A stretch of 49,721 bases of DNA from a bacterium (lineage in GTDB: Bacteria; Hinthialibacterota; Hinthialibacteria; Hinthialibacterales; Hinthialibacteraceae), in NCBI GenBank assembly GCA_016125385.1, contig WGLV01000034.1, positions 1 through 49,721 on the forward strand, read 5' to 3'. This document shows positions 13,640 to 37,007 of the stretch, piece after piece. A program made the position numbers and the translations under genes. Position 1 is the stretch's first letter. Every line of letters starts with the position of its first letter. The notes under the pieces were generated by a model. It was not told the origin of the DNA. It was given only the letters and a program-made list of their open reading frames with translations, and ran no database searches.

Positions 13640-15325
13640 ATGAACATGCGTTTTTTCTCTTCTCACATCCAGAGTGAACCAGGCGAGGGCGCGTTTTCAC
13701 AAGCGATCGGCCGCTTGAGCGAGGCTCGTCCCTTTCTGACGCTTTGCCTGATCGGCGGGGTGTTGTATCTCACATGGCTGACCGCTGAACCGCTCCGCAC
13801 GCACATTGAAGGCTATCGTGTTGAAGCCGCGTGGGAGATGCTGCATTCCGGCGATATGGCGGTTCCAACGCTGAATGGGCGGCCCTACCTGGCGAAACCT
13901 CCCTTTCAATACTGGCTGATCGCGCTGGTTTCGCTTCCATTCGGCGAAGTTACTTTACTCACCGCGCGCATGGTATCTGGCGCGTCGGTCATCACGGTGA
14001 TGTGTATGCTGTTCGCATGGGGCCGCCGGATCGCGGGTTCGCGCGCGGCGTTTTATGCGGCGATGGTTTACGCGCTGGCGCCGCTCATTATTGAAAAAGG
14101 GCCGCGCGCCGAGCTGGAATCGCTGCTGGCGGCGCTGACCACCGCCTCAATTCTTTTGTTATGGCGCGCTTGTGAAAACGAACGCGGCTGGGTAATCACG
14201 CTGAGTTCTGGAATCGCGCTTGGCGCGGCCAATTTGACGAAAGGGCCCGTGCCCTGGCTGATTTTCATCTGCGCGTGGCTGGGTTTGATCGCCGCCAGCC
14301 GGGGGACGCGAAAGCGGATCGCCGTTCGCGGGCTCGCCGCGCTTGGCGTCTCTCTGTTATGCGTCACGCCGTGGGTCATCGCGCTGCTGGCGCGCTTCGG
14401 CCCCGGCGATCTCTACCGCATTGTGTACGACGAGGTGCTCGAACGCACCGTTTCAGAACGAGAGATCATCCACGAGCCGTTCTGGTATTACGCGCATTCG
14501 CTGTTGAAAGGCTTCGCGCCGTGGAGCCTGCTCATGCCCGCACTGTCCGCCTGGCGCGGCGTAACCAAAGCATTGAACGACGAACAACGCCGAGCGGCGG
14601 GAATGATGATCGGCTGGTCTCTGGGCGCCGCGCTGTTATTCAGCCTGTTTTCAGGAAAAGAGACGCGCTACCTGATTTCGACTTATCCCGCCTGGGCGAT
14701 GTGGATGGCGTGGGCGTGGACCGAAGCCACACAAAGGGGCTGGCTGGCCGCATACCGGCGTTTTCTCACCATCGCCGTATATTGGGGAGCGCCCGTATTA
14801 TTGCTCGCCGCCTGTTTCATCCTGCCTGGTTTCTTTCAGCCCTTCGAAACGTACTGGCTCGGTTACGCCGGTTTCGTCCTGCTGATAAACGCGGTTGGAT
14901 TGATGTACGCCGCGCAAAGGTTCAATCTCAAGACGACGATGATCGCCGCGCTGGCGCTGTTGGTGATCGCGTTTCGAATGAGCTTCGTGGGAACTTACCT
15001 CACGGAACGATCCGTGAGTTATCCTTTTGCGTCAATCGGCGAACAGATTCAACAGCAGCTCGAAGCCGACGAGCCGATGGCGCTTGTCGGTATCTATCGC
15101 GCCTATCTGCAATTCGCGGTGAAGCATCCATTTCTCTATTATGAAACCGGCGATGAATTTCAACGCGCGCTTCAGGATGGCGAACTCGACGGGCGTCTGG
15201 CGCTGTTACAACCGAAGCACGTTGAATCGCTGCACGTGAACGCCCCCGAATTACTGGCTCGCATGAGTTTCATCCAGCAATGGAAAACCGCTCGCGATGA
15301 ATTCGAGTTATATCGAATCAATTAA
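13640..15325 (+). CDS. ArnT/PMT-like polyprenyl-phosphate-sugar glycosyltransferase
   Basis: The 561-residue integral membrane protein fits the GT-C glycosyltransferases of the ArnT/PMT type (dolichyl- or undecaprenyl-phosphate-sugar dependent). After a first helix, the periplasmic loop has the family pattern HIEGYRVEAAWEMLHSGD followed by VPTLNGRPYLAKPPFQYW, including the KPP motif; the usual acidic pair is represented by Glu-Gly. About ten further hydrophobic helices follow, with PRAELESLLAALTTAS and LTKGPVPW in the expected region and a non-membrane C-terminal domain after about residue 445. Relatives transfer aminoarabinose or other sugars to lipid A, or mannose to proteins. Acceptor and donor cannot be told from sequence. 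ATG 13640 or 13646 both fit. Confidence 0.83.
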   Translation: MNMRFFSSHIQSEPGEGAFSQAIGRLSEARPFLTLCLIGGVLYLTWLTAEPLRTHIEGYRVEAAWEMLHSGDMAVPTLNGRPYLAKPPFQYWLIALVSLPFGEVTLLTARMVSGASVITVMCMLFAWGRRIAGSRAAFYAAMVYALAPLIIEKGPRAELESLLAALTTASILLLWRACENERGWVITLSSGIALGAANLTKGPVPWLIFICAWLGLIAASRGTRKRIAVRGLAALGVSLLCVTPWVIALLARFGPGDLYRIVYDEVLERTVSEREIIHEPFWYYAHSLLKGFAPWSLLMPALSAWRGVTKALNDEQRRAAGMMIGWSLGAALLFSLFSGKETRYLISTYPAWAMWMAWAWTEATQRGWLAAYRRFLTIAVYWGAPVLLLAACFILPGFFQPFETYWLGYAGFVLLINAVGLMYAAQRFNLKTTMIAALALLVIAFRMSFVGTYLTERSVSYPFASIGEQIQQQLEADEPMALVGIYRAYLQFAVKHPFLYYETGDEFQRALQDGELDGRLALLQPKHVESLHVNAPELLARMSFIQQWKTARDEFELYRIN

Positions 15326-15442: not shown

Positions 15443-16147
15443 ATGAAACGATTGCTTATTTTGAGCGCCGCGGCGTTATTGACCGCGGCGGGATCCGCTC
15501 ACGCTTTTGAATTCAAGGACGGTCTTGAAGGTCCGTGGGTCCAGCCCGAAAAAGTGTTTAATTTCGCTTTTGAAGGCGATGGCTTCGATGAAGACTGGTT
15601 CGTCAGCAACGTCAACTGGATGGGCGACAACCAGTTCGACATGATTGCTGAAGAAGTCATCAAAACCGAGGGTGATTATTCGCAGGCGGCCAACGCCTAC
15701 TGGGCCAACAACGCGCCGCGCGATCTCTATCTGGCGCGTAAGGTCGACGGCCTCGAACCGGGCAAAACCTACAAGGTGACGCTCGACTGGCGTTTTGATG
15801 ATGGGGTCAGCGCTGAAACCACCAATCACATCATGTACGACGTGCGCGACGGAGATCAACAAAGCCAGGCCGCCATCGCCGACATTGAAATTTACGGCGG
15901 ACACGATCGGCCCAATACCACTCGGATCGATGAAGCGGAGGGGACCATCGGTGATGGTCAGTTCCATACGATGGAACGCATTCATACGGCATCGGAATCG
16001 TCAATCACTTTCATGATGATCGTCCGCTTCTGCCATGACGATCCCAGCAAGGGATTCGCCGAGCCGTTCGACGCCAACTGGCTTTATCTCGATAATTTCG
16101 TCGTGACCGACGCCGCCACGCCGGTCAGAGACTGGGCTCTGTATTAA
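15443..16147 (+). CDS. Secreted protein with TPVxDWxL-aromatic C-terminal motif, function unknown
   Basis: The 234-residue protein starts with a Sec signal peptide (about 1-21, ending GSAHA) and is otherwise acidic and beta-rich, resembling a carbohydrate-binding or jelly-roll domain (KVFNFAFEGDGFDEDWF, LEPGKTYKVTLDWRFDDGV, NWLYLDNFVV). I do not recognise a named family. It ends TPVRDWALY, which closely matches the ends of the two 1017-residue proteins encoded downstream (TPVTDWSLF and TPVSDWSLF), although the rest of the protein is not obviously related. GGAGG at 15432-15436 sets the start. It is followed by a strong terminator and is convergent with the first of those large genes. Confidence 0.8.
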   Translation: MKRLLILSAAALLTAAGSAHAFEFKDGLEGPWVQPEKVFNFAFEGDGFDEDWFVSNVNWMGDNQFDMIAEEVIKTEGDYSQAANAYWANNAPRDLYLARKVDGLEPGKTYKVTLDWRFDDGVSAETTNHIMYDVRDGDQQSQAAIADIEIYGGHDRPNTTRIDEAEGTIGDGQFHTMERIHTASESSITFMMIVRFCHDDPSKGFAEPFDANWLYLDNFVVTDAATPVRDWALY

Positions 16148-16172
16148 ACCGGTTGTTTTCTCACCTGAGATG

Positions 16173-16211
16173 AAAGCCCCGTCCATTATACAAAGGGACG
16201 GGGCTTTTTTT
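16173..16211 (+). terminator. Rho-independent terminator
   Basis: GCCCCGTCC and GGACGGGGC pair over 9 bp across an 11-nt loop, followed by TTTTTTT. Confidence 0.85.
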
Positions 16212-16246
16212 GTTAAATTGGCCGGCGCGGGTCCATGCCTGTGCAT

Positions 16247-16278
16247 AAAAAAAATCCCCCGGACTTTCGTCCGGGGGA
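16247..16278 (-). terminator. Rho-independent terminator of the first 1017-residue protein gene
   Basis: On the minus strand TCCCCCGGAC and GTCCGGGGGA form a 10 bp stem with a GAAA loop, then eight T. It is separate from the plus-strand terminator 35 nt away. Confidence 0.85.
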
Positions 16279-16314
16279 AGCGGATATCACTACGATAATC
16301 GGAATTCGAATCGA

Positions 16315-19300
16315 TCAGAACAGCGACCAGTCCGTGACGGGAGTACCGCCGCCCGCAGGGACGCCCCAGATGTCATACAGGTTGTAGCCGGGGTTGGTGC
16401 TGTACTTCGTGTTCAATTGCAGCGTCACCGAGACCAGAGTCTTGTTGGGATTAACCGGAGTGATGCACTCGAAGATCGCCGGGTCGCGCGACTGCGCATA
16501 GGTGCTGGCGCCGCCTTCCAGCCGGTCCATACCATTGACCAGCTGACGGGTGTTGGCGAACTGAATTTCGCCGCCGTCGTTGAACCAGTCATCCGCATGG
16601 AACGTACCGATTTCCGTGGTGCCGTCGTCGTACTTGAAGGTCGCATCCAGTTCGCCATCGCCGTTGCCGACGGTCTGAGCCGAACGCAGTTCCTTGTACT
16701 TGCCGGGCGGAACCATGTCGAAGGTGAAGGGCCCCATCTGTTGAGCGTTGTTCATGAACTTGATCGAGTTCTTCAAGCCCAGTTCCAGGCTCGTGTTGTT
16801 GTAGGGTCCGAGAATGTGACCGTTGAGACCGCTCATGTGGTCGACGGGAAGACCGTAAGCGACTACCTGACCGCTGAGGTTGGCGACATCAGTAAAGTAG
16901 ATGTTACCCGTTACGATCAGATAGTAGTTGTTGCCATTGTCGTGGCCGAACCCGGGCACGCCAGTGACGGCGTCATCGACCTGATCGATAGAGATGACGT
17001 CCCACGCCGGCAACGTGGCCGGACGGTTCGGGTCGTCGATCCGCAGATTGACGCGGCCCGCGCCAGCCGGAGGAATCGCCGGAACCGAACTGATCCACAG
17101 GTTATCGAAATAGGCGTTGCCCGTGGCGCCGCCGCGGCGGAACCGGAACGAAGCGACGTCGCTGATGTTGTCGGCGCCCTTGGCGTCCGCCGTATCCCAA
17201 CGATCCGTTTTGTCCGGGTCAACCCACATTGAAACCTGGCTGTTCGCTCCGTTAATCTGGATTCGAGCCAGGATGTGATGCGCGACGGTGTAATCCGCAT
17301 TCGTCAACGCATCGGCGTTCGTCAGGTTGCCGATACCGAGCTTCGCGGCGTTATACGGCTTACCGATAAAACTCACTTCCTGACCGGCTTTGTTGTAGAA
17401 GGTAATGCCCGACCAGTGATTGGCGGCGGGGCCCCCTTCTTTATACGTAAACGAAACCCACACTTCACCACCGATGGGATTGACGGGCAAAGTACGGGCG
17501 ATGCCGTCCGTATTGTCGCCAGTCAGCTTCACCGAGTAGTTGCCGGGGTTGTATTCCGTCGGCTGCGATTCAACCAGCCCCGCGTCCAGCGTGGCGGTAT
17601 CGAGCACCGCGTTAGTCAGCGCGCCGGATTTCGTCCAGGCGGCGCCATTCCAGTTAAAGCCGCCGTTGCGGCCTTCCAGGGTTTTACCCGCCAGTTCGTT
17701 GCTGTTATTGGAGGGATAGGAGAAGGTTTCAGCCACGTTAAAGGTAATCGCGCTCAAAGTCGCCGGACCGCCGACGGGGAGATCGAGGTTGCCGCCGACC
17801 GCGTTGCTGGTTCCCCAGTTCAGCGCCGCGACATTGATGTCGCTCGTCGCCGTAACGGTGTAGCTGAGTTTCTGCGAACCGGTCACGTTGCTCAGGTTCC
17901 AGGTGATGACGCCGTTGGCGAGCGTACCGCCGCCAGTGATGCCGGTCACGCTGGTGGCTTGAGGCGGAACCGCTTCTTTAATCACCAGTGAGGAAATCGT
18001 CTGGCCTGTGCGGACGTTAACGTTCAGATCGACGTTAAACGTCTGCCCGGGAGCATATTCGCTGACCGGAAGCGCGCGGACGACTTCAAACGGATATTCG
18101 GTAATCTGAAGTTGGCTGACCTCGACGGTACCCAGCAGCGAGTTGTCATGCGAGGTGCAGGCGATGCCAAACAGATATTCCGAACCGATGTCTTTCAAAA
18201 AGACCGAGCCATGTTTAACCCAGGCGCCGCTTAAATTCTGATAATAACTTTCCACCAGAGGCCCGACTTTGCGGATTTTGAACATGCCGTTGGTTTCTGA
18301 ATACGCGATGATGCCAGATCCCGCGCTGTTGACCGCTTGCGAATCGCGGCTCTGCAGCTGGTGGCCGTTATCGGAACGCACCATGCAGAAACCATTGGCC
18401 GCGCCCGAACTGAGGCTGGAACGGACCATCAGACCACCCTTCGTCCAGGTGGGTTCACCCGGAGCGGTAACAAACAGATCGGCGGTCGCTTCAAAACTGC
18501 CGGTCATCTTCTTGTACAGATAGTGCATGCGATCGCTGGCTTCCCAGATATCGCCGCCGCCGCCGGTCACGGTGTAGGTTCCACTCGCGAACGCACCCGA
18601 ACCGGGACGGGTGAATCCGCCCAGATCCAACTGGTTGGTAAACACGCCCGCCGAGGCCAAAGACAGGAACGAAGGAGCGGTGGTGACCTGTTCGAGTTTG
18701 ACGTTGCTTACTTTGCCGGTGGCCAGAGCGGTATTATTCTCATGGTTGGTGACGGCAAAACCGATTGCGTAATTCGCGTTCGATTTCATGCCGGCGACCT
18801 GAGCGGTGGCGCAAAAATTCCAGGTCGTACCATCCTTTGAAAACTCGGCGTAGATCACGTCAAGCGGCGCCCAATACCCAATTCGCAGGTATACGGGGCC
18901 CGCCACTTCCGTCGCGGGATCGCTGGGCAAACGACCGCGCCCATCATGAGAACGCGCCGTGGATCGCTCGCGATACTGAGGCGAAACCAGGTCGTTCAGT
19001 CCGCGTAACGCGTTAACCATGTGCCCGGAAGATCCACTCGCACCGTTCGCGCGAATCATCGGCCCGATCTTCGCCCAATCGTTGGTTCCGTGGTCAATCC
19101 ACTCGACCAATCCCGATACACGCCAGCTTTCGCCGATCGGTTTTTCGGTATACAGATAAAATCCTTCGTCAGCGTTACCCCAGATGTCGGCGCCGTTGCC
19201 CTTCAGGGTATAGACGCCGCCCGCCTCCGACGCGGAGCCGGCGACTTTGGTCCCGTCGCCCAGATCCCAATCGGCGGTTTTGTTAAAAACACCGGCGCCT

Positions 19301-19368
19301 TGTGCGAATACCGGCAATGACGCCAGCGCGAACGCCAACGCCAAAAAACCTATTTTTTTGTACTTCAT
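16315..19368 (-). CDS. Large secreted multidomain beta-rich protein, paralogue A
   Basis: The 1017-residue protein has a Sec signal peptide (about 1-22, ending LPVFA). Two related segments follow at about 30-210 and 240-425. Each contains a G-x-YT..G.G.DIW motif, a Y-LY strand, and W.K.G.M.R, the pattern of DUF1349-like concanavalin-type modules. About 428-540 resembles a DUF11/CARDB-type Ig-like domain (APGQTFNVDLNV, GVITWNLSNV). About 540-770 looks like a LamG or carbohydrate-binding module (AETFSYPSNNS, GEVWVSFTYKEGGP, ARIQINGANSQVSMWVDPDK). A C-terminal region from about 785 begins WDVISIDQVDD. The protein ends TPVTDWSLF. GGGAGG 8 nt upstream sets the start. It is almost collinear with the next gene (same length), so the pair is a tandem duplication. 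It is probably a cell-surface or secreted carbohydrate-binding protein; no catalytic motif is seen. Confidence 0.85.
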   Translation of the reverse strand: MKYKKIGFLALAFALASLPVFAQGAGVFNKTADWDLGDGTKVAGSASEAGGVYTLKGNGADIWGNADEGFYLYTEKPIGESWRVSGLVEWIDHGTNDWAKIGPMIRANGASGSSGHMVNALRGLNDLVSPQYRERSTARSHDGRGRLPSDPATEVAGPVYLRIGYWAPLDVIYAEFSKDGTTWNFCATAQVAGMKSNANYAIGFAVTNHENNTALATGKVSNVKLEQVTTAPSFLSLASAGVFTNQLDLGGFTRPGSGAFASGTYTVTGGGGDIWEASDRMHYLYKKMTGSFEATADLFVTAPGEPTWTKGGLMVRSSLSSGAANGFCMVRSDNGHQLQSRDSQAVNSAGSGIIAYSETNGMFKIRKVGPLVESYYQNLSGAWVKHGSVFLKDIGSEYLFGIACTSHDNSLLGTVEVSQLQITEYPFEVVRALPVSEYAPGQTFNVDLNVNVRTGQTISSLVIKEAVPPQATSVTGITGGGTLANGVITWNLSNVTGSQKLSYTVTATSDINVAALNWGTSNAVGGNLDLPVGGPATLSAITFNVAETFSYPSNNSNELAGKTLEGRNGGFNWNGAAWTKSGALTNAVLDTATLDAGLVESQPTEYNPGNYSVKLTGDNTDGIARTLPVNPIGGEVWVSFTYKEGGPAANHWSGITFYNKAGQEVSFIGKPYNAAKLGIGNLTNADALTNADYTVAHHILARIQINGANSQVSMWVDPDKTDRWDTADAKGADNISDVASFRFRRGGATGNAYFDNLWISSVPAIPPAGAGRVNLRIDDPNRPATLPAWDVISIDQVDDAVTGVPGFGHDNGNNYYLIVTGNIYFTDVANLSGQVVAYGLPVDHMSGLNGHILGPYNNTSLELGLKNSIKFMNNAQQMGPFTFDMVPPGKYKELRSAQTVGNGDGELDATFKYDDGTTEIGTFHADDWFNDGGEIQFANTRQLVNGMDRLEGGASTYAQSRDPAIFECITPVNPNKTLVSVTLQLNTKYSTNPGYNLYDIWGVPAGGGTPVTDWSLF

Positions 19369-19605
19369 AGGTGATACCTCCCAGTAAGAGATTCATGAAT
19401 ATTTCGCGGAATTTGTTGGTAGGGATGATTGATCGTCCGCAGTGGATACCGCGCACAAACCATGAAGATTCAGACCCTTTGAAGCAAACTCACTCCACCC
19501 CAGCGAAAGAAAATGAAACCGTTGTCACAGGCTACTCGATACACATCACCTCCCATCCAGTCAACTCATCATCAGGTCATTCAATTTAATAGAAATACAA
19601 ACAAT
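19369..19605 (-). promoter_or_regulatory. Long 5' leader of paralogue A
   Basis: About 237 nt lie between the predicted transcription start and the start codon, with no supported gene. Minus-strand GGAGGTGATG (19553-19544), a 9-nt complement of the usual 16S anti-Shine-Dalgarno tail, sits 176 nt before the start and is also present in the leader of paralogue B. Just before the ATG, ATCACCT can pair with that upstream AGGTGAT. Confidence 0.4.
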
Positions 19606-19611
19606 CAAGGT

Positions 19612-19641
19612 ATATTGCATGAAAACCGATTCAATTGTCAA
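19612..19641 (-). promoter_or_regulatory. Sigma-70 promoter of paralogue A
   Basis: On the minus strand a consensus -35 TTGACA (19641-19636) is separated by 18 nt from CAATAT (19617-19612). It lies just downstream of the paralogue B terminator, so paralogue A has its own transcription unit. Confidence 0.55.
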
Positions 19642-19684
19642 CCTTAAAGATGCGATTAAATTAAACATCGAATCAAAATAGACA

Positions 19685-19714
19685 GAAAAAATTCCCGGGC
19701 CGAAGCCCGGGAAT
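19685..19714 (-). terminator. Rho-independent terminator of paralogue B
   Basis: On the minus strand ATTCCCGGGC and GCCCGGGAAT form a 10 bp stem with a TTCG loop, followed by a T-run. Confidence 0.88.
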
Positions 19715-19749
19715 CGTGATTCTATTGCAACAACAAAGCGTAAGTCTAA

Positions 19750-22700
19750 TTAAAACAGCGACCAATCTGATACCGGCGTACCGCTGTCGGCGGGAACAGC
19801 CCAGATGTCGAACAGGTTGTAACCAAAGTCAGGATCGACGTCCGCGTTGTATTCCAACGTAACCGAAACCAGCGTTTTGGCCGGATCGACCGGCTGAATG
19901 CACTCAAAGACAGCCGGGTCAAAACGGGCGTCAAATTCACTGGCGCCGCCCTGAAGACGGTTCATGCCATCCACCAGTTGACGGGTGTTGGCGAACTGAA
20001 TTTCGCCGCCATCGTTGTACCAGTCATCCGCGTGGAACGCGCCGGTGCTGGTCGTACCGTCGTCATAGGTGAACGTAGCGGTCAGCTCCCCATCGCCGTT
20101 GCCGACGGTCTGAGCCGAACGAAGTTCGCTGTACTTGCCGGGAGGAACCAGATCGAAGGTGAACGGTCCCGTCTGATCGGCGTTGTTCATGAACTTGATC
20201 GAGTTTTTCAAACCCAGATCGTCAATGTAGTTGTTGTACGGTCCAAGAATGTGGCCGTTCAATCCACTCATGTGGTCGACGGGCAAACCGAACGCGACCA
20301 CCTGACCGCTCAGGTTCGCGACGTCCGTGAAGTAGATGTTGCCCGTAACGATCAGATAATGGTCGTTGCCATTATCATGACCGAAGCCGGGGATGCCGGT
20401 GACGGCGTCATCGATCTGATCGATGGAGATGACGTCCCACGCGGGCAGATTGGCCGGACGATTGGGATCGTCGATCTCGAGATTGACGCGGCCCGCACCG
20501 GCCGGCGGAAGCGCCGGAACCGAACTGACCCACAGGTTGTCGAAGTACGCGGAGCCTGAGGCGCCGCCGCGGCGAAGCCGAATCGACGCTACGCTGTCAA
20601 CGCTGTCCGCGCCTTCGGCGTCAGGCGTGTTGATCCGGTCTTCCTTGTCGGGATCGACCCACAGAGAAACGCTGCTGTTCGCGCCGTTCACGTTGATGCG
20701 GGCGAGGATGTGATGGTTTTCATTGTACGGAACATCCGTCAACACGTCATCGCCAGGCAGATTGCCGATGCCAAGCGTTTCGGCGCCATACGGCTTACCG
20801 ATGAAGCTGACTTCGTTGCCGTCAGCGTTGTACAGGGTCATGCCCGACCAGTGATCCGCGGCCGGACCGGTTTCTTTGTACGTAAACGAAACCCAGACTT
20901 CACCGCCGATGGCGTTGACGGGAAGATTGCGGGAGATGCCGTCGGTGTTATCGCCGGAAAGTTCAGCCGAGTAGTTACCGGGGTTGTATTCCGTCGGCTG
21001 AGACTGAACCAGACCCGCATCGAGGGTATCCACGTTCAACACGGCGTTGGTCAGATCGCCTGATTTCGCCCAGGCGTTATCGGAGCCCCAGTTAAAGCCG
21101 CCATCGAGACCGACGATCGTGTCGCCTTCCAGTTCGTTGCTGTCGTTGGAAGGATAGGAGAATGTTTCAGCGACGTTGAAGGTAACCGCTTCAAGACGCT
21201 TGGCGCCCGCGACGGGCAGTTCAAGACCATCGCCCGTTGAGGTGCTGGCGCCCCAGTTCAAGGAGGCCACGTTCACGTCGGTGCTGGTGGTTACAGAATA
21301 GCTGAGCGTTTGAGGAGCGGACACACTGGACAGAGTCCAGGTGATCACGCCATCCGCCAGAACGCCGCCGCCTGAGATACCGGAGATGTCGACCGCCTCG
21401 GGCGGAACCGCTTCTTTAATCACCAGTGAAGAGATCGTCTGACCATCACGCGGATTCACCTGAACGTCCACGTTGAAGGTTTGACCAGGCGTGTAGTTGG
21501 TGACCGCCTGAGATCGAACGACTTCAAACGGATATTCTGTCACCTGCAAGTCGCTGACTTCAACGGTCCCCATCAGGGTGTCGTCGTGAGCCGTGATCGC
21601 GATACCGAAGTAATAATTCTCACCGATATCGGTCAGAATCGCTTCACCGTGCTTCACCCACGCGCCGGCGGTATCCTGATAGTAGTTTTCAACCAGGTTG
21701 CCGACTTTGCGGATTTTGAACTTTCCATTGGTCAGATCATACGCCAGAAGGTCTGATGCATCCGCGGAATCCGTGGACTGCGACGAACGCTGCTGCATAT
21801 GATGTTGTGCGTCGGAACGCAACATGGCGAATCCGTTGGATGAACCGGAGCTCAGGTTGGATCGCACCATAAGACCGCCTTTGGTCCAGGTGGGCTCGGC
21901 GACGCCGGTGATGAAAATATCGCCGGTCGCTTCAAAGCTGCCGGTCATCTCTTTGTAAAGGAAGTGCATGCGGTCGCTGCCGCCCCAGATATCGCCGCCG
22001 CTGCCTGAAACAGTATACGTACCGTTGTCGAACGAAGCGGAACCGGGTTGATTGTAGCCGCCAATGTCGAGCTGACTGGTGAAATCACCCACGCCGCCCT
22101 GATTGAGAAACGCGGGAGCGGTGGTGACTTGTTCCAGTTTCACATTACTCACCTTGCCGGTGGCCAGCTGATCGTTTCCTTCGTGATTGGTAATCGCAAA
22201 GCCGATGGAGTAAGACGAACCCATATCGGTAAGTTGAGTCGAAGCGACGTCATACCAGGTCGTGCCGTCAGTGGACACTTCCGAGTAAACCACGTTCAGA
22301 GGCGCCCAGTAGCCGGTACGCAGATAGACGGGACCGGTCAAATCCGTGGCGGGAGCGCTGGGCAGGCGGCCGCGGCCGTCGTTGGTTCCCAAACCAGCCG
22401 CATCGCGGAATTCGGGAGCCACCAGCGTATTCGCGCCCTGCAACACCGTGAACATGTGGCTCGAGGCGGTATCAGCCGCATCGTTACGAACCATCGGGCC
22501 GAATTTCGCCCAGTCGTTGGTACCGTGGTCGACCCATTCCACCAGGCCGGAGAGCTGCCAGCTTTCGCCCGCGGGCTTTTCGGTGTAAAGGAAAAATCCT
22601 TCATCGGCGTTGCCCCAGATGTCGTTACCGTTGCCCATCAGGGTATAGACGCCGCCATTTTCCGTGGCGGATCCAGCCACTTTGGTCCCGTCTCCCAGGT

Positions 22701-22803
22701 CCCAATCGGTTGTTTTGTCAAATACGCCGGCTCCTTGTGCGAAAACCGGCAATGACGCCAACGTCAGAGTCAGCGCCATAAATCCAATTCGTTTCAATTG
22801 CAT
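19750..22803 (-). CDS. Large secreted multidomain beta-rich protein, paralogue B
   Basis: This is a full-length paralogue of the downstream gene, also exactly 1017 residues, with the same order of parts: signal peptide ending LPVFA, two DUF1349-like modules, an Ig-like domain, a LamG/CBM-like module, and the WDVISIDQIDDAV C-terminal region, ending TPVSDWSLF. Most positions are visibly identical, with differences spread along the length (for example NKTADWDLG versus DKTTDWDLG at the start). ATG 22803 is chosen because AGGAGG lies 8 nt upstream and the signal peptide begins there; an in-frame ATG at 22947 would put 48 unrelated residues in front. It is acidic overall, consistent with an extracellular protein. 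Function is unknown; the modules suggest glycan or surface binding. Confidence 0.86.
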   Translation of the reverse strand: MQLKRIGFMALTLTLASLPVFAQGAGVFDKTTDWDLGDGTKVAGSATENGGVYTLMGNGNDIWGNADEGFFLYTEKPAGESWQLSGLVEWVDHGTNDWAKFGPMVRNDAADTASSHMFTVLQGANTLVAPEFRDAAGLGTNDGRGRLPSAPATDLTGPVYLRTGYWAPLNVVYSEVSTDGTTWYDVASTQLTDMGSSYSIGFAITNHEGNDQLATGKVSNVKLEQVTTAPAFLNQGGVGDFTSQLDIGGYNQPGSASFDNGTYTVSGSGGDIWGGSDRMHFLYKEMTGSFEATGDIFITGVAEPTWTKGGLMVRSNLSSGSSNGFAMLRSDAQHHMQQRSSQSTDSADASDLLAYDLTNGKFKIRKVGNLVENYYQDTAGAWVKHGEAILTDIGENYYFGIAITAHDDTLMGTVEVSDLQVTEYPFEVVRSQAVTNYTPGQTFNVDVQVNPRDGQTISSLVIKEAVPPEAVDISGISGGGVLADGVITWTLSSVSAPQTLSYSVTTSTDVNVASLNWGASTSTGDGLELPVAGAKRLEAVTFNVAETFSYPSNDSNELEGDTIVGLDGGFNWGSDNAWAKSGDLTNAVLNVDTLDAGLVQSQPTEYNPGNYSAELSGDNTDGISRNLPVNAIGGEVWVSFTYKETGPAADHWSGMTLYNADGNEVSFIGKPYGAETLGIGNLPGDDVLTDVPYNENHHILARINVNGANSSVSLWVDPDKEDRINTPDAEGADSVDSVASIRLRRGGASGSAYFDNLWVSSVPALPPAGAGRVNLEIDDPNRPANLPAWDVISIDQIDDAVTGIPGFGHDNGNDHYLIVTGNIYFTDVANLSGQVVAFGLPVDHMSGLNGHILGPYNNYIDDLGLKNSIKFMNNADQTGPFTFDLVPPGKYSELRSAQTVGNGDGELTATFTYDDGTTSTGAFHADDWYNDGGEIQFANTRQLVDGMNRLQGGASEFDARFDPAVFECIQPVDPAKTLVSVTLEYNADVDPDFGYNLFDIWAVPADSGTPVSDWSLF

Positions 22804-23034
22804 AGGTATTTCCTCCTGACAATTTGTCTGTCGCAGAGATGAGTTTACAGATTTGCGATAGGTGGGGATGAGTGAGAGCGTTGCAGGGAACCGCATTGGA
22901 AAAAGGAAGATTAAAAAAGAGAAAGAGTAGCCAGATACCATCCCCACAAAAGCAGCACGAAAATTTTTTCAGGGCGAGTATGTGCGAGTTACCTCTAAGG
23001 CATCACCTCCAATCATAATAATAGACATGACATA
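22804..23034 (-). promoter_or_regulatory. Long 5' leader of paralogue B
   Basis: About 230 nt of untranslated leader are predicted. Minus-strand GGAGGTGATG (23010-23001) lies 198 nt before the start, and GTGGGGATG (22947-22939) can pair with CATCCCCAC (22870-22862) to close a loop of about 70 nt. No gene is supported in 22804-23254. Confidence 0.4.
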
Positions 23035-36446: not shown

Positions 36447-37007
36447 ATGAAACGGGAGAACGGGTTTACGTTAATCGAATTGCTGATCGTCGTCGCCATT
36501 ATCGGCATCCTGGCGGCCATCGCCGTGCCGAACTTTCTCAACGCCCAGTTGCGCGCCAAGATCGCCGGGACTCAGAGCGACCTGCGCATCATGGTTGACG
36601 CCATGCTGGAATACCATCTCGATAACAACTCCTACCACATGCATCGCGACGGGCTGGGGCAGCAGTTTCCCCTCACCACCCCCACGCCATATCTCACTGG
36701 TTTTCTGTACGATCGCTTTCAGGCCGCACCCAACATGAACCAGGCGGCGGGATTCGTTAATTCAAAAACCTATTACCACTGGATTCCCGCGCGCACCCAC
36801 CTCGACCTGTGGTCGGGCTCCGGCCCAAAGGGCCATCCCTCGCTGAAGCGCGCCACTTCGGTCAAAAACGGCGGCGTGGTGGATGGGTGGGGCCCAGCCG
36901 GCGTGCGCGGCGGCCCGCCCTACGACCCATCGAACGGCCTCATCAGCCTGGGCGGCTTCGTGCGCGAGGTTCCACCCGGCTCGGCGATTCAGGGGCAGGG
37001 TTATTAA
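36447..37007 (+). CDS. Type II secretion/type IV pilus-like pseudopilin
   Basis: This 186-residue pseudopilin begins MKRENGFTLIELLIVVAI, a short charged leader ending in Gly, the canonical -1 residue for prepilin peptidase (the first two pseudopilins have Ala there). The hydrophobic helix runs to AVPNFLNAQLRAKI. The globular part shares LTTPTPYLTG with its paralogues but has a Gly/Pro-rich C-terminus (GGPPYDPSNGLISLGGF) and no cysteine. GGAGG precedes the ATG by 8 nt. It is monocistronic, between a divergent phosphatase gene and a convergent mutarotase gene. Confidence 0.9.
   Translation: MKRENGFTLIELLIVVAIIGILAAIAVPNFLNAQLRAKIAGTQSDLRIMVDAMLEYHLDNNSYHMHRDGLGQQFPLTTPTPYLTGFLYDRFQAAPNMNQAAGFVNSKTYYHWIPARTHLDLWSGSGPKGHPSLKRATSVKNGGVVDGWGPAGVRGGPPYDPSNGLISLGGFVREVPPGSAIQGQGY

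Follow-up and report, generated by a model that had tools for sequence, protein, structure and literature searches.

Three exported proteins encoded in the window, by which we mean the whole analysed stretch of 49,721 nucleotides from a genome of Ca. Hinthialibacterota (OLB16 in the GTDB designation; PMC11382960), end in a shared nine-residue tail that is very probably a short C-terminal targeting signal. The tail is real, is not an ordinary feature of secreted proteins and is, to our knowledge, undescribed; it keeps a strict C-terminal place, is carried by unrelated exported proteins, is separable from the domain that it follows and is under selection at the peptide level. The gene at 15443..16147 (+) encodes a 234-residue protein consisting of a signal peptide (MKRLLILSAAALLTAAGSAHA), one beta-sandwich domain resembling carbohydrate-binding modules (CBM) and the tail TPVRDWALY (16118..16144, +; stop at 16145-16147). 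The genes at 16315..19368 and 19750..22803 are both on the minus strand (there are many stops on the plus strand of the two intervals) and encode exported proteins of 1017 residues each, the first a multidomain protein ending in TPVTDWSLF (16318..16344, -; stop at 16315-16317) and the second ending in TPVSDWSLF (19753..19779, -; stop at 19750-19752). The open frame of the latter gene runs from a GTG at 22947; its likely start is the ATG at 22803, ahead of the signal peptide. In all three translations the stop comes immediately after the tail, exactly as the preliminary description of this DNA had it. The same description had taken the two large proteins for paralogues, which is borne out by their 71% identity, and had seen no similarity between them and the 234-residue protein outside the tail: the sole meaningful alignment is indeed limited to the final 15 residues, and profile comparison of the 234-residue protein with the large ones gave no relationship (probability 0.1). 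Homology of the small protein to the large ones, which the description had named as refuting its idea, is thus not borne out. No match in Pfam or NCBIfam was obtained for the 16315..19368 product. Directly upstream of the 234-residue protein gene and on the same strand lies a PMT_2/ArnT-like glycosyltransferase gene (13640-15322, +), a proximity that suggests a possible link to surface glycosylation.

By searching the whole genome (5.53 Mb) for D-W-x-L-[FY]-stop as a DNA pattern, we found 23 matches versus 3 for the reversed control pattern, an excess that argues against a chance origin of the tail. In 18 cases the match closes an open frame in phase, and the encoded proteins have 234-1493 residues and begin with a signal peptide; the other five comprise one 92-residue frame resembling another tail protein and four short chance frames. 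With [VI] added at position -7, the counts were 19 versus 1 for the control. A search tolerating one mismatch (38 versus 8 matches) yielded 14 further C-terminal cases on exported-type proteins, in which D was replaced by E, G, N or V, L by V and, once, the last residue by H. The preliminary description had regarded absence of the motif from other exported proteins as fatal to its proposal; the genome has at least 32 exported proteins ending [T/V/S/A]-x-V-x-[D/E/G/N/V]-W-[S/A/x]-[L/V]-[Y/F]-stop. Most other signal-peptide proteins encoded in unselected stretches, among them parts of the type II secretion system (T2SS) and the window's porin-like protein, do not carry it, which indicates that the tail marks a subset of the secretome, as had been proposed. 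Two proteins of this genome (G000) have ends that deviate from the motif. A CotH-type protein (G000:C47:36143-36166, -) terminates in VNDWSLFEW, that is, the motif plus two residues (EW), the one case in which anything follows it, and its relatives in other genomes stop exactly at the motif. Another protein (G000:C30, L280:13202-15538, -) terminates in VSDWRAY, with Ala in place of Leu; it adjoins a tail protein ending VKGWMLY, and a Tad-type pilus cluster that includes secretin, CpaE- and CpaF-like genes begins shortly downstream.

The tail occurs on different folds: after removal of their last 14 residues, the 104 tail proteins collected fell into 42 clusters without a BLAST link. A signal peptide, called by custom rules rather than by SignalP, was recognized on nearly all of them. 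Pfam domains found on these proteins include LTD, CotH, LamG, FG-GAP, Lcl_C, CBM96, and SMP-30, and the enzyme-type members are subtilases with a PA domain, GH57 with CBM53, and M23 peptidases. Judged by their domains, such bodies (LTD+CotH, FG-GAP, subtilase+PA, GH57+CBM53, M23) are predicted to be typical secreted or surface cargo. The sole paralogue of the 234-residue protein in the genome (G000:C18), 43% identical across residues 40-222, lacks the tail and starts with the signal peptide of a lipoprotein (VTGC); it ends ...NWFYMDNFQVAAQ, about where the 234-residue protein continues into TPVRDWALY. The shared domain is therefore found in one protein with a lipid anchor but without the tail, and in the other with the reverse combination; because the lipoprotein ends at the domain boundary, the tail is a separable module. 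The two features can nevertheless coexist, since lipobox-like signals occur on two tail proteins elsewhere. These observations bear on the main rival of the T2SS reading developed below, in which the tail would be a surface-retention tag: the proteins would be exported by another route, and a surface receptor (PDZ-like or acting by beta-augmentation) would then hold them on the cell or matrix. In its favor are the lipid anchor that G000:C18 has in place of the tail and the adhesin-like or carbohydrate-binding nature of many tail proteins (LamG, CBM, FG-GAP); against it, the tail also occurs on subtilase, GH57, and M23 enzymes, kinds that cells often release, and no receptor was found; we consider this explanation rather unlikely.

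We used two structure models, both weak (pLDDT 55-56), solely to place the tail relative to the last strand. That of the 234-residue protein, weak given its mean pLDDT of 56, has carbohydrate-binding modules as best Foldseek matches (TmCBM61, E-value 5e-6); its last predicted strand spans residues 213-223, and residues 229-234 have a pLDDT below 50. In the modelled fragment of the 19750-22803 product, the tail likewise comes after the last predicted strand, and residues 469-479 have a pLDDT below 50. Both weak models thus place the tail in a low-confidence stretch past the last predicted strand. Five orthologues of the 19750-22803 product, all from relatives, keep V, D, W, and L of its tail although the preceding linker varies, and in the orthologues of the large proteins this linker differs in both length and sequence whereas V-x-D-W-x-L-[FY] is constant.

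The anatomy of the tail was examined in a set of 96 proteins, for which the search pattern itself dictated D, W, L, and Y/F. At positions free in the search, we found V at -7 in 81 proteins, T/V/S/A at -9 in 89 and S/A at -3 in 61; position -8 is occupied by P, S, A or G, and position -1, limited to Y/F by the search, by Y in 67 proteins and F in 29. In 705 kb of DNA, a set chosen around terminal matches, 93 occurrences of the motif are terminal and one is internal. All four Val and all six Leu codons occur in the tails, and Asp is encoded by GAC and GAT in nearly equal numbers (53/55); this free codon use indicates that selection acts on the tail peptide, and no conserved flank was found among tail genes in the DNA downstream of the stop. 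Since the window's three tail proteins include a pair of paralogues, the tail could have been the remnant of a shared C-terminal domain or, alternatively, a gene-end element at the level of DNA or RNA. Both ideas are already refuted by these data, namely the 42 unrelated clusters, a similarity confined to the tail, free codon use and the lack of a conserved flank.

The distribution of the motif was surveyed in 386 genomes from about 150 phylum-level lineages, the number of lineages being inferred from kinship ordering. Genomes of the window's family have 10-26 matches of D-W-x-L-[FY]-stop versus 0-3 for the control, and 7-19 matches of [VI]-x-D-W-x-L-[FY]-stop versus 0-1; a match was found in 13 of the 14 genomes of the phylum. 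The three genomes of a second family (f17) gave 7, 14, and 8 matches versus 0 for the control, and one genome of a third lineage (G279) gave 5 versus 0, one of these five being a short chance frame. About 368 other genomes are at background, with 0-2 matches of [VI]-x-D-W-x-L-[FY]-stop. Strong enrichment is thus restricted, among the 386 genomes, to the window's phylum, family f17 and G279, and the open frames inspected in the window's family, its class relatives, f17, and G279 encode the same type of protein.

The preliminary description had set the tail apart from PEP-CTERM, LPXTG and the C-terminal domain (CTD) of the type IX secretion system (T9SS), and these distinctions hold. Tripartite tags (LPXTG, PEP-, GlyGly-, and MYXO-CTERM) were ruled out, as the tail has neither a transmembrane helix nor an Arg cluster and the stop comes directly after the motif; NCBIfam sorting-domain models gave no match to the C-termini of 13 tail proteins at E-values up to 1. 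The PEP-CTERM/IPTL-CTERM core, P-x-x-[S]-[E/D/T]-W-x-L, does resemble V-x-D-W-x-L and provides a lead, but it is accompanied by a hydrophobic helix and an Arg cluster, and exosortase (PF09721) is missing in 10 of 14 tail genomes, among them the six from the window's family, and was therefore rejected as the machinery. In other phyla, the T9SS CTD (TIGR04183, or Por secretion tail) serves as the export mark of LTD/CotH, FG-GAP, and peptidase proteins, but it is a folded domain of 70-100 residues, unlike the short tail described here. SprA (TIGR04189) was above cut-off in none of 14 tail genomes and above it in two tail-less ones (G022 and G038); T9SS was rejected on this lack of SprA and of any sorting-domain match, including a Por_Secre_tail-type domain. 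An RTX-type C-terminal signal of type I secretion is disfavored too, because it requires the absence of a Sec signal peptide and nearly all tail proteins have one. As for the outer membrane, a signal of the insertion type, read by BamA or another Omp85 protein in the manner of the C-terminal aromatic residue of porins, would account for the terminal Tyr/Phe (itself imposed by the search), a known feature of outer-membrane barrels. However, the bodies are soluble multidomain proteins and, with Asp at -5 and Ser/Ala at -3, only the final residue fits the alternating pattern of the beta-signal, whose absence had been pointed out from the start. We therefore regard recognition by BamA as very unlikely.

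Closer counterparts are GlyGly-CTERM/rhombosortase and MYXO-CTERM/myxosortase, in which C-terminal tags of many-to-one type are also found on unrelated Sec-exported proteins, dozens per genome and in confined lineages, and in which the surface proteins depend on T2SS (PMC3237569, PMC11980579). These tags, however, combine a signature with a transmembrane helix and an Arg cluster and are cleaved by an intramembrane protease, whereas the stop comes right after the motif in the new tail. The general class of C-terminal sorting tags is thus known, and the form, short and with neither a membrane anchor nor a folded domain, is new. A literature search for the motif and for the tail-bearing phyla returned nothing on such a tail, and we found no described counterpart of an anchor-less C-terminal tag of seven to nine residues on dozens of unrelated exported proteins.

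Regarding the machinery that might read the tail, T2SS or its pseudopilus is the leading candidate, which we put forward tentatively: it handles folded unrelated proteins, three T2SS clusters are present in the window's own genome, with genes including GspF, pseudopilins, GspK, and a GspD-type secretin, and GspK was found in all 17 tail genomes tested (E-value 2e-36 or better). Co-occurrence with a particular protease or outer-membrane component had been suggested as a check; T2SS is also present in two tail-less genomes (G142 and G011) and is consequently not specific to tail genomes. The tail proteins have two attributes expected of T2SS substrates, a predicted Sec signal peptide and a T2SS in the genome. 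Moreover, where a pseudopilin gene adjoins a tail gene, the two share a strand in a ratio of 19:1, against 23:18 for pseudopilin genes next to other genes (P = 0.0025). An apparently strong adjacency of pseudopilins to tail genes (18/112 neighbor slots, P = 4e-10 against a genome-wide estimate) was not retained, as it drops to a mild 9% versus 5% of neighbor slots (P = 0.03) against other genes of the same loci; of the pseudopilin signals, strand bias alone holds up. Other recurrent neighbors, such as response regulators and ABC ATPases, belong to common families.

No linear sequence is shared among the T2SS substrates known so far (PMC7949064), unlike the tail proteins, which have one in common at the extreme C-terminus. 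On the other hand, a nine-residue exposed loop of PelI (loop 3) can control recruitment, some substrates rely on the PDZ domain of GspC, and the Ig-fold of VesB works with the PDZ domain of EpsC (PMC7949064, PMC12369372). A scan of ten proteins from the T2SS clusters revealed neither a PDZ nor any other peptide-binding domain. The prepilin motif has 64 exact matches in the genome, which may contain 117 genes for pseudopilins that resemble GspG and vary in their C-terminal domains; most are outside the T2SS clusters. In the window, such genes lie at 210-905, 931-1557, and 36447-37004. A GspH-type pseudopilin within a T2SS cluster (G000:C2, L284:2466-3149, +) ends GVTDWSYR, near the motif and not matching it. 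Also outside these clusters, two short secretin-like genes of about 380 residues each lie side by side (G000:C13:4879-6365), a pair conserved in three genomes (equivalents in G003:C14 and G005:C143).

The most plausible reading of a free C-terminal end conserved across many exported proteins is an address recognized in the envelope, which agrees with the resemblance to a sorting, anchoring or secretion signal first noted for the tail; occurrence on many folds supports such a role, as far as function may be deduced from sequence. We thus propose that the tail is probably a short linear targeting signal bound by an envelope receptor that sends the protein onward, likely across the outer membrane. 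The tail proteins would cross the inner membrane via Sec and fold in the periplasm, exposing a flexible C-terminus made of a variable linker and V-x-D-W-x-L-Y/F with its free carboxylate. A single receptor would bind this end and direct the protein to export or surface sorting; tentatively, the reader may be part of T2SS or of a pseudopilus, given the three clusters and the tens of orphan pseudopilins. A free hydrophobic C-terminus is also what PDZ proteases are known to bind, and the tail might then label proteins for a periplasmic protease, tail-specific or of HtrA type, in processing or quality control; yet a signal for degradation is hardly expected to persist on tens of unrelated proteins while most of the secretome lacks it, which makes this role highly improbable. 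Returning to T2SS, a more specific version, possible although doubtful, is that V-x-D-W-x-L-[Y/F]-COOH is a transferable linear T2SS signal: in two phyla or more, one short C-terminal peptide would recruit folded, unrelated cargo, perhaps together with orphan pseudopilins dedicated to particular substrates. The tail allows some of the proteins that these candidate phyla export or display on their surface to be predicted from sequence alone and, if its reader is T2SS, it would offer a linear handle on cargo choice by a system described as having no common linear sequence among its substrates.
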